From contig NZ_AZRK01000024.1 in NCBI RefSeq assembly GCF_002895485.1, positions 1 to 64,000 of the forward strand: DNA of 64,000 nucleotides, in the 5' to 3' direction. Positions 6,693 to 9,934 of the stretch are shown here, in pieces. A program made the position numbers and the translations under genes. How positions within the stretch are numbered: position 1 is the first letter of the stretch; each line of letters begins with the position of its first letter. Below the pieces are notes generated by a model. That model made no database searches. It was not told the origin of the DNA and saw only the letters and a list, made by a program, of their open reading frames with translations. Source of the stretch: Petrotoga sp. 9PWA.NaAc.5.4 (lineage in GTDB: Bacteria > Thermotogota > Thermotogae > Petrotogales > Petrotogaceae).

Positions 6693-7598
6693 GTGAAAAA
6701 ATTGATAGAATGTATCCCAAATTTCAGTGAAGGAAGAGATAAAGAAAAGATAGAACGTATCGTTGATGAAATTAGAAAACAAAATGGAATTAAATTGTTG
6801 AATTATTCTTACGATAAAGACCATAATAGGAGTGTCGTCACCTTTGTTGGGGAACCCGAGGAAGTTATAGAAGCTGCTTTCAATAGCTGCAAAAAAGCAT
6901 GTGAGTTGATCGATTTGAGAATACACAAAGGAGAACATCCTCGAATGGGAGCAACCGATGTTATACCCTTAGTACCTATAAAAAACGTTACTATGCAAGA
7001 GTGCATAGAATATTCAAAAACATTAGCAAAAAGAATAGCTGAGGAATTAAATATTCCAGTATTTTTATATGAAAAATCAGCTATGACTCCTGAAAGAGAG
7101 GATCTATCAAATATAAGGAAAGGCGAATTTGAAGGAATGTTTGAAAAAATGAAAAAAGAAGAATGGAAACCAGATTATGGTCAGGATAAGCCACATGAAA
7201 GTGCTGGAGTCACAGCAGTCGGAGCACGAATGCCTTTAATTGCTTTCAACATTAACTTAAACACGAATAATATAGAAGTAGCCAAAAAGATAGCAAAAGC
7301 CGTTCGAGGAAAAAGTGGAGGATTTAAATATTGTAAATCTCTCGCATTTGAGATCAAAGAAAGAAATATTGTACAAGTCTCGATGAACATGGTAGACTAT
7401 ACAAAGACACCTCTTTATAGAGTCTTTCAAGTAATAGAAAACGAAGCAAATAGATATGGTGTTAGTGTAATTGGAAGTGAAATTGTTGGATTGATTCCAT
7501 TGAATGCAATTGCGGACATAGCAGATTATTTTTTGAAACTCGAAAATTTTAATTACGACCAGATTTTAGAGAATCAAATTTATGGTGATGAACTATGA
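6693..7598 (+). CDS. ftcD: Glutamate formimidoyltransferase
   Basis: Transfers the formimino group of N-formimino-L-glutamate to tetrahydrofolate, releasing glutamate. The protein has 301 residues, the transferase part only, without a fused cyclodeaminase domain. The motif HKGEHPRMGATDV holds His82, which matches the catalytic His number I recall for the mammalian enzyme. The start is GTG with GGAGG 7 nt upstream. It overlaps hutI by four bases (ATGA). Its presence means the pathway goes through formiminoglutamate and THF, not a HutG/HutF route. A formimino-THF cyclodeaminase would be needed elsewhere in the genome. Confidence 0.93.
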   Translation: MKKLIECIPNFSEGRDKEKIERIVDEIRKQNGIKLLNYSYDKDHNRSVVTFVGEPEEVIEAAFNSCKKACELIDLRIHKGEHPRMGATDVIPLVPIKNVTMQECIEYSKTLAKRIAEELNIPVFLYEKSAMTPEREDLSNIRKGEFEGMFEKMKKEEWKPDYGQDKPHESAGVTAVGARMPLIAFNINLNTNNIEVAKKIAKAVRGKSGGFKYCKSLAFEIKERNIVQVSMNMVDYTKTPLYRVFQVIENEANRYGVSVIGSEIVGLIPLNAIADIADYFLKLENFNYDQILENQIYGDEL

Positions 7599-8875
7599 AA
7601 AAAGAGGAAGCTACGTTAGTTCTTAAAAATATTTCAAACTTAATAACTTTAAAAGGTCCCAATAGAGCAAGAATAAAAAGAGAGATGTCAGAAACGGGAT
7701 TAATTAACAACGGAATTATCGCAGTAAAAAATGACAAAATAATATATGTTGGACAAGGTACCTTACCTAAAAATATAAAAACAACGGCTGAAACAAAAAT
7801 AATTGATTGCAAAGGAAAAACTGTAACTCCAGGACTAATTGACTCACATACACATTTAATACATGCGGGCTCAAGAGAATATGAACTTTTTGAAAAAATA
7901 AAGGGTATAAAATACTTGGAAATTCTTGAATCAGGTGGAGGAATCTATGATACCGTTGAGGCTACTAAAAAAGCATCTTTTAAGGAATTATACGAAAAAG
8001 CCGAAAAAAGTCTAAATATAATGCTAAGTTATGGAGTTACTACTATAGAAGCAAAAAGTGGTTATGGGCTCGATGATTTTGAAACAGAATTAAAGCAATT
8101 GGAAGTTATGAAAGAGTTGAACAAAAACCACCCTGTAGACATAGTACCTACTTTTTTAGGAGCCCATGCTGTTCCTAAAAAATATAGAAACAACAGTGAC
8201 GATTTTGTTGAAAAACTATTAAAAGAAATGATTCCATTCGTTTCTGAAAAAAGGTTAGCTAAATTTTGTGATGTGTTTTGTGAAAAAGGAGTATTTACAG
8301 TAGAGCAAAGTAGAAAAATTCTATCAGAAGCTAAAAAATTTGGGTTACTTCCTAAAATTCATGCAGACGAAATAGAAAGTACTGGAGGTGCTGAATTAGC
8401 AGCTGAATTAGGTTGTATATCAGGTGATCATTTGGTAGGAGCAAGCTATAATGGTTTAAAAATGATGGCAGAAAAAGGAGTAATTGCAAATCTCTTACCT
8501 ACAACTACATTTTTTCTTCAAAGTGAAAAATATGCAAAAGCAAGAAAAATGATTGATTTAGGAATACCTGTTACACTTTCTACAGACTATAATCCTGGAA
8601 GTTCTCCCACAGAAAATCTACAATTAGTAATGAGTTTTGGAGCCATTAAATTAAATATGACACCGCAAGAAATAATTAATTCTGTGACTATAAATGCTGC
8701 TGCTTCCTTAAAACTGGAAAATCAAGTTGGAAGTATTGATGAAGGAAAAAATGCTGATATATCAATTTTTGACACACCAAGTTTAGAGTATTTAATATAT
8801 CATTTTGGGATAAATCATACTTATATGGTTATAAAAAATGGGAAAATAGTATATAATAAAAATCCCATCCTATAA
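7595..8875 (+). CDS. hutI: Imidazolonepropionase
   Basis: Hydrolyses 4-imidazolone-5-propionate to N-formimino-L-glutamate. It is an amidohydrolase-fold metal enzyme of 426 residues, close to the family norm. Expected metal and substrate motifs are present: DSHTHLIHAGSR (His85, His87), LGAHAVP, IHADE (His256), SGDHL (His279) and STDYNPG (Asp331). The start codon overlaps the ftcD stop (ATGA), indicating translational coupling, and the SD is weak. The hut operon ends here; no clear terminator follows, and the next promoter (8944) belongs to a small RNA. Confidence 0.95.
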   Translation: MKKEEATLVLKNISNLITLKGPNRARIKREMSETGLINNGIIAVKNDKIIYVGQGTLPKNIKTTAETKIIDCKGKTVTPGLIDSHTHLIHAGSREYELFEKIKGIKYLEILESGGGIYDTVEATKKASFKELYEKAEKSLNIMLSYGVTTIEAKSGYGLDDFETELKQLEVMKELNKNHPVDIVPTFLGAHAVPKKYRNNSDDFVEKLLKEMIPFVSEKRLAKFCDVFCEKGVFTVEQSRKILSEAKKFGLLPKIHADEIESTGGAELAAELGCISGDHLVGASYNGLKMMAEKGVIANLLPTTTFFLQSEKYAKARKMIDLGIPVTLSTDYNPGSSPTENLQLVMSFGAIKLNMTPQEIINSVTINAAASLKLENQVGSIDEGKNADISIFDTPSLEYLIYHFGINHTYMVIKNGKIVYNKNPIL

Positions 8876-8943
8876 AATAAGATAAATGTATTTAATATTT
8901 ACATAGCATTTACTTAATATTAACTATAAAATATGAATAACTC

Positions 8944-8972
8944 TTGACAATATTCTAAAAATGTGATATTAT
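8944..8972 (+). promoter_or_regulatory. Strong promoter of the small RNA
   Basis: TTGACA (8944-8949) and TATTAT (8967-8972) with a 17-bp spacer: a consensus -35 and a -10 one base off. No ORF with a start and SD follows, so it should drive the structured RNA at about 8980-9186. Confidence 0.75.
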
Positions 8973-8979
8973 TTTAATA

Positions 8980-9186
8980 AGGATCTGAGAGAAGGGGTGT
9001 TGAAGTAGTAAGAAAGGGTGCTCAGATTCTCAATTGCCCCTTTAGAACGGGGTGAGAGTTGTAGGTTAAGGAAGGTGTAGTGTGTTTAGTAACGGGAGTG
9101 TTGTTACATGGGGTTCCTGCATGGCTACGCAAAGATAAAGAGTAAAACCTTGCGTATGATGTGTAGCTTGCAGGAACCCATTTTTG
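8980..9186 (+). ncRNA. Candidate small structured RNA, about 205 nt, family unknown
   Basis: The segment is clearly richer in G than its surroundings, has its own promoter, and ends in a long terminator. Visible helices are 8983-8989 with 9021-9027 (7 bp), 9028-9032 plus 9037-9040 with 9049-9057, and 9111-9121 plus 9124-9128 with 9163-9179. G-rich GGGTG-like motifs recur near 8995, 9015, 9051 and 9073. No open frame is supported. I do not recognise tmRNA, RNase P RNA, SRP RNA or 6S RNA: there is no tRNA-like end, no SRP loop, and the 5' and 3' ends do not pair. It lies between hutI and the convergent uppP. Confidence 0.6.
9111..9185 (+). terminator. Rho-independent terminator of the small RNA
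   Basis: GGGTTCCTGCA (9111-9121) pairs perfectly with TGCAGGAACCC (9169-9179). The helix continues through GCTAC/GTAGC, and the right arm is followed by ATTTTT. There is no U-run in the other direction, so it serves the plus strand only. Confidence 0.85.
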
Positions 9187-9187
9187 T

Positions 9188-9934
9188 TTATATTACAACA
9201 ATTGTCAATATTCCAACTATAAAACAATAATAAGAAAAATATTTTAGTTTTCCTGCTATAACTGTTTTTTGAAGTAAAAATAATCCAAATAATCCTGCTA
9301 TAAAAGCCGATAAAGTTCCTATTATAATTGAGAAATCAAAATAAACTTGGTTAATTTCTAATATTCCTGCTCCAAATGTAACCGGTAAACTCATTAAAAA
9401 GGAATATTTGACTGCATCTTCTCTTTTTGTCTTCATTAATAATGCTCCAAATAAAGTTGCACCACTTCTTGAAATTCCCGGGAAGATCGCTATTGCTTGC
9501 ATTATACCTATAATCAAGGCATCTATATAAGAGATTTCTCTCAAAGTTTTCTTTCCTTTTAAAGAATCGGAAATAAATAACAATATTCCAGTTATCAACA
9601 AAAAAATGCCTACAAGAGTAGTTGAAGAAAAAGCACTTTCAATCTTTGATTCCACTGTAAAACCAACTAAAACTGCCGGTATAGAAGAAACTATCAACTT
9701 CATAATTAAAGAAAGAGACGACTTTTCCCATTTGAACAATCCAACAATTAAACCGATTACTTCTTTCCACACAAAAATCAATACCGCAAAAAAAGTTGCC
9801 AAATGGAGAAGAGCGAAATAGGGTACATTCGTCTCTATCTCCATAAAATTAGAGAAAATTACTAAGTGTCCCGAACTTGAAACAGGTAAAAACTCCGTCA
9901 AACCCTGAACAATACCGAGTATAATGTTTTTCAT
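9188..9934 (-). CDS. uppP: Undecaprenyl-diphosphatase (BacA/UppP family)
   Basis: A membrane phosphatase that recycles undecaprenyl diphosphate to the monophosphate carrier for peptidoglycan and other envelope polymers. Both family signatures are visible: GLTEFLPVSSSGH at residues 11-23 and PGISRSG near residue 155. The 248 residues are strongly hydrophobic with several membrane spans, slightly shorter than E. coli UppP. The ATG has an AGGGGGT SD. It is a single-gene unit with its own promoter at 9981-10009. Confidence 0.93.
   Translation of the reverse strand: MKNIILGIVQGLTEFLPVSSSGHLVIFSNFMEIETNVPYFALLHLATFFAVLIFVWKEVIGLIVGLFKWEKSSLSLIMKLIVSSIPAVLVGFTVESKIESAFSSTTLVGIFLLITGILLFISDSLKGKKTLREISYIDALIIGIMQAIAIFPGISRSGATLFGALLMKTKREDAVKYSFLMSLPVTFGAGILEINQVYFDFSIIIGTLSAFIAGLFGLFLLQKTVIAGKLKYFSYYCFIVGILTIVVI

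Follow-up and report, generated by a model that had tools for sequence, protein, structure and literature searches.

A probable stand-alone small RNA gene between hutI and uppP in Petrotoga sp. 9PWA.NaAc.5.4 and its homologue in Defluviitoga

The interval between hutI and uppP in Petrotoga sp. 9PWA.NaAc.5.4 raises the question of whether it holds a gene of its own or mainly the 3' end of the operon that precedes it. In the window (the whole 64,000-nucleotide stretch analysed, positions 1 to 64,000 of contig NZ_AZRK01000024.1) the genes for urocanase, glutamate formiminotransferase and HutI lie upstream on the same strand, and uppP (BacA) and a xanthine/uracil permease gene make up the convergent side. 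The features of the locus are as follows.

7595-8875, plus strand: hutI, imidazolonepropionase-type amidohydrolase, the gene upstream of the sRNA
8944-8972, plus strand: sigma-70-type promoter, TTGACA-17-TATTAT (-35 at 8944-8949, -10 at 8967-8972, TG upstream of the -10)
8979-9187, plus strand: predicted sRNA of about 209 nt, G-rich and non-coding, recognised from sequence, fold and the Defluviitoga homologue
8981-9029, plus strand: H1, the 5' hairpin, GGAUCUGAG (8981-8989) pairing with CUCAGAUUC (9021-9029) around a 31-nt G-rich loop
9031-9061, plus strand: H2, CAAUU (9031-9035) with AGUUG (9057-9061), inner helix GCCCC (9036-9040) with GGGGU (9049-9053)
9065-9084, plus strand: conserved Shine-Dalgarno (SD)-like box GUUAAGGAAGGUGUAGUGUG, consensus GUURAGGAAGGUGNNNUGUG, between H2 and the terminator
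9089-9107, plus strand: proposed helix H3, GUAAC (9089-9093) with GUUAC (9103-9107), 9-nt loop
9111-9187, plus strand: intrinsic terminator, 11-bp stem with inner GCUAC/GUAGC, U-tract at 9181-9187
9188-9934, minus strand: uppP (bacA), the convergent neighbour, whose stop codon adjoins the sRNA terminator

The basic anatomy proposed for this locus in the first-pass annotation, namely a near-consensus promoter, about 205 nt of G-rich non-coding sequence and a very strong terminator of 11 + 5 bp, is borne out. The promoter hexamers stand at 8944-8972 with the expected 17-nt spacing, and a transcription start near 8979-8980, downstream of TATTAT, is predicted from them. Taken by itself, the promoter match lacks significance, because sites of this grade (at least 11/12) occur 6 times in the 64-kb window against about 3.4 expected from shuffles of such AT-rich DNA. 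The body of the RNA (8979-9108) consists of 35% G and 9% C in a window with a GC content of 30%, and equally G-rich 130-nt windows account for 0.016% of those on either strand of the 64 kb. The predicted RNA of about 209 nt has a fold energy of -63.4 kcal/mol (z = -2.97), and there is no conserved reading frame among the three available sequences, i.e. the window RNA and the two relatives described below. The terminator combines a perfect 11-bp stem, GGGTTCCTGCA (9111-9121) pairing with TGCAGGAACCC (9169-9179), with an inner helix GCTAC/GTAGC and a T5GT3 tail; it is the sole instance in the 64-kb window of a stem 9 bp or longer with T4 after it, a combination found 0 times in shuffles. A simple terminator scanner missed the stem, since it allows loops of no more than 8 nt. 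The T-tract is immediately followed, on the opposite strand, by the stop codon of uppP, the convergent gene (9188-9190; the junction spans 9181-9190), and hence the sRNA and uppP lie tail-to-tail in an extremely tight arrangement. A search of its own genome indicates that the sRNA gene is present in a single copy. With its own promoter, an intrinsic terminator and no need of a neighbouring gene, it thus has the anatomy of a stand-alone bacterial sRNA gene.

The earlier remark that the RNA matches no recognisable housekeeping RNA also agrees with our searches. A scan of the window RNA against Rfam 15 at gathering thresholds returned no family, and a permissive scan returned HgcG only, at chance level (E = 0.92, with 10.5 bits where the cut-off is 77). 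An RNA model (R1) searched against 103 genomes of the class gave convincing scores in the window genome and in the two genomes of Defluviitoga only; neither the remaining 18 Petrotogaceae nor the 82 additional genomes from the class held a convincing copy. The best of the other matches had an E-value of 0.019, and these lay in coding sequence or were without a terminator; of six weak class matches five are in coding sequence, and the sixth, from the same order (L208), is intergenic without a comparable terminator. Relaxing the filters of R1 over the 21 family genomes added nothing. Inspection of the hutI and uppP flanks in a further genus, which we take to be Petrotoga, likewise revealed no copy of the RNA. 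Blastn against 150 relatives yielded nothing beyond short matches attributable to chance, most of them at the AT-rich promoter end; searches of plasmids, phages and viral contigs recovered no relative of the RNA, and a contig search with UppP reached distant phyla only.

The homologue in Defluviitoga is a new line of evidence. It is present in Defluviitoga tunisiensis (G003, locus L170; region 1,478,540-1,478,750 of G003) and in a sister species (G009, locus L171), in both on the uppP side of the equivalent region and on the same strand as the window RNA. Both copies are preceded by a promoter, TTGACA-17-CATAAT, laid out as in the window, and the order of parts is alike in the two genera: promoter, 5' hairpin, second hairpin, box, terminator. 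The Defluviitoga box is GUUGAGGAAGGUGCUUUGUG, so that the motif common to the genera reads GUURAGGAAGGUG(N3)UGUG. The Defluviitoga terminator stem is CGGGUUCCUGUACGU/ACGUACAGGAACCCG, of which 9 bp (GGGUUCCUG/CAGGAACCC) are identical to the window; the U-tract is weaker, TATTTATTTG as against T5GT3 in the window. As a cross-check, a covariance model was built from the two Defluviitoga sequences alone, with the terminator stem as its sole structure. This model recovered the window RNA as its single match in the 64 kb (40.2 bits, E = 1.1e-6), on the same strand and beside uppP. The HutI and UppP proteins of the window genome are about 75% identical to those of Defluviitoga and of the presumed Petrotoga genus alike, and we place the window genome in a genus separate from both.

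The two Defluviitoga RNAs are about 95% identical over their 3' three quarters and have diverged at the 5' end. This high 3' identity cannot be taken as a sign of selection, since the entire SDR-uppP segment shows unusual similarity between these species: third-position divergence is 7-11% in the SDR gene and uppP and 31% in the upstream permease gene. The evidence of probable constraint on the RNA comes from comparing the two genera. The jump in identity between the Defluviitoga species falls inside the RNA gene itself, at about position 8590 of L170, and looks like a recombination boundary, suggestive of the exchange of a segment between the species.

The 5' hairpin is shorter than H1 in Defluviitoga and is formed by GGAGU/ACUCC in D. 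tunisiensis and GGAGC/GCUCC in the sister species, which is a compensatory change. At the position of H2 both have a hairpin CUUGUUG/CAACAAG. At the spacing of H3 they can form GUUUC/GAAGU, with two A-U/U-A swaps; H3 is put forward as a proposal since it was recognised from the same sequences and is absent from the minimum-energy folds of the Defluviitoga RNAs. In the alignment 18 of the 18 modelled pairs are kept and 3 are changed on both sides (2 of them in H3), a count made on the same three sequences from which the structure was drawn; in a control with the partners slid by 1-3 columns 34-48% of the pairs are kept. A loop-loop contact between the H1 loop and the 5' arm of H2, at -13.3 kcal/mol in the window RNA and equalled in 3% of shuffles, was also considered, and was dropped because the Defluviitoga RNAs stand at 42% and 14% of shuffles.

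The first-pass annotation had further suggested that repeated GGGTG-type motifs could bind SD-like or C-rich targets or a protein, and this part is not supported as worded. The repeats are specific to the window genome and absent from the Defluviitoga RNAs; what is conserved instead is one SD-like box, and among the G-rich blocks AGGAAGGUG alone is common to the window RNA and its relatives. The box is predicted to be 74-86% unpaired in the window RNA and 23-50% unpaired in the Defluviitoga folds. Sites complementary to its 13-nt core with at most 1 mismatch are not enriched over a reversed-pattern control, and wherever an off-target site could be attributed to a gene, it lies antisense to that gene. 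The idea of a stand-alone structured sRNA of no known family is thus upheld, by the null Rfam result and by a Defluviitoga homologue that has a promoter and a terminator of its own beside a different upstream gene, and the functional hint attached to it is not.

Taken together, these results make it very probable that the stretch encodes a genuine small non-coding RNA from a gene that stands alone. On the strength of the gene anatomy, the best-supported reading is a trans-acting, probably protein-assisted regulatory RNA, and we consider it rather more probable than its alternatives combined that this is an autonomous sRNA gene of about 209 nt which uses its own promoter and terminator and acts in trans through the SD-like box. 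As both Hfq and CsrA are encoded in the genome but no target was found, we infer the regulatory mechanism, as we do the transcription of the RNA and its action in trans. Transcription would proceed from its own housekeeping-type promoter and end at the strong intrinsic terminator. The working part would be the GUURAGGAAGGUG box between hairpin 2 and the terminator, presented and protected by the hairpins; this box may pair with C/U-rich stretches of target RNAs, and the U-tailed terminator is a candidate Hfq site.

This reading must be weighed against the rival one that the stretch is mainly a long 3' UTR and terminator of the hut operon, with the promoter-like site being fortuitous or a minor internal start. 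We found no terminator between hutI and the sRNA promoter, nor any other up to 9111, and therefore hut transcripts probably do end at the sRNA terminator; the frequency of comparable promoter matches in the window is also compatible with a chance site. However, in Defluviitoga the gene upstream of the RNA encodes an ABC-transporter permease rather than HutI (with an SDR gene separating the RNA from uppP), and promoter, body and terminator are nonetheless kept, which indicates that the RNA is independent of hutI and constitutes an autonomous sRNA gene rather than just a hut 3' UTR. The unusual G-rich body and the conserved box would moreover be unnecessary for termination, and we regard the 3' UTR explanation as unlikely. 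A similarly low probability attaches to a role in titrating CsrA, whereby GGA segments of the RNA would bind the protein and free its mRNA targets. Besides the presence of CsrA, this is favored by an AGGA within the conserved box and by candidate second sites, as the H1 loop has AGGA in one Defluviitoga species and GGGA in the other, and a GGGA occurs in the H3 loop of the window RNA. Nevertheless, there are only 4 GGA in 209 nt, one of them within the terminator stem, the second site is placed differently in the two genera, and large CsrB-type RNAs carry many more.

Two related proposals take the resemblance of the box to an SD sequence at face value. In one, which we hold to be quite improbable, base-pairing of the box with the 16S rRNA 3' end would let the RNA either bind 30S subunits or drive the synthesis of a very short peptide that starts at a downstream GUG. 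Against an assumed anti-SD sequence, not taken from the genome of Petrotoga sp. 9PWA.NaAc.5.4, the box yields -11.4 kcal/mol in both Defluviitoga RNAs and segments of the window RNA about -11.5 kcal/mol, with nearby genes at -9 to -13, and a GUG follows the box by a few nucleotides in 3 of 3 RNAs. However, the peptides in the GUG frame share little beyond the residues encoded by the terminator stem, the changes between the two Defluviitoga species in this frame are mostly non-synonymous, and the short ORF was rejected for this want of amino-acid conservation. Slightly more improbable still is an abundant, lineage-specific Petrotogaceae RNA that mimics the SD sequence and binds the 16S rRNA 3' end or 30S subunits; to our knowledge, SD mimicry as a global control of translation is not established for any bacterial sRNA. 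Finally, the RNA could take the functional place of 6S RNA, or of some other abundant housekeeping RNA that in this lineage escapes Rfam, given that 6S RNA exceeded the Rfam cut-off in none of the 21 Petrotogaceae genomes searched. But its separate hairpins do not form a rod with a central bubble closed by the 5' and 3' ends, and the RNA is absent from most of the family, so that this is the least probable of the alternatives. The Rfam result in itself suggests that Petrotogaceae may lack 6S RNA, or have one invisible to the model.

In its general layout the RNA proposed here as a trans-acting regulator resembles the Hfq-associated intergenic sRNAs of, for example, Escherichia coli: a single-copy intergenic gene of 50-250 nt with a sigma-70-type promoter, an unpaired conserved segment and a U-tailed intrinsic terminator, in a genome that encodes Hfq. 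It has no sequence or Rfam relation to these RNAs, and unlike in them the conserved segment is purine-rich and SD-like. With the CsrA-sequestering CsrB/RsmZ RNAs it shares its G-richness, some GGA in loops or linkers and an encoded CsrA; it differs from them in its few GGA, whose positions are not conserved, in place of many GGA in loops. Like 6S RNA (RF00013) it is about 200 nt long and stand-alone, and it differs in having neither an Rfam match nor the bubbled rod. It is therefore best described as a new lineage-restricted sRNA family of Petrotogaceae, recognisably common to Defluviitoga, and not as a new kind of system.

Few sRNAs have been described in Thermotogota. A multi-omic study of T. 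maritima listed 12-13 putative ncRNAs for which no secondary structure was definable, and did not mention 6S RNA (PMC3636130). These are of the same phylum, non-coding and outside known RNA families like the window RNA, which differs in being structured and whose model finds nothing convincing outside Petrotogaceae. A structured sRNA gene common to two Thermotogota genera, one of which includes the sequenced isolate D. tunisiensis L3, offers a concrete case for asking whether sRNAs are partners of Hfq or CsrA in thermophilic Thermotogota.

The surroundings of the locus vary among relatives. In Defluviitoga an operon encoding a DUF3798 protein, an ABC ATPase and two BPD_transp_2 permeases (L170, 3558-8467) lies between hutI and the sRNA; the window genome has no such operon between hutI and uppP. 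In the presumed Petrotoga genus hutI is followed not by the sRNA but by an apparent tRNA gene with its own terminator (L172, about 2305-2395; also L175, L176, L178 and L179). In the window the RNA gene is flanked by two imperfect direct repeats of 19-20 nt, AACTATAAAATATGAATAA and AACTCTTGACAATATTCTAA (8922-8958 and 9197-9233), which are 80-84% identical and are possibly due to chance in AT-rich DNA or the trace of an insertion.
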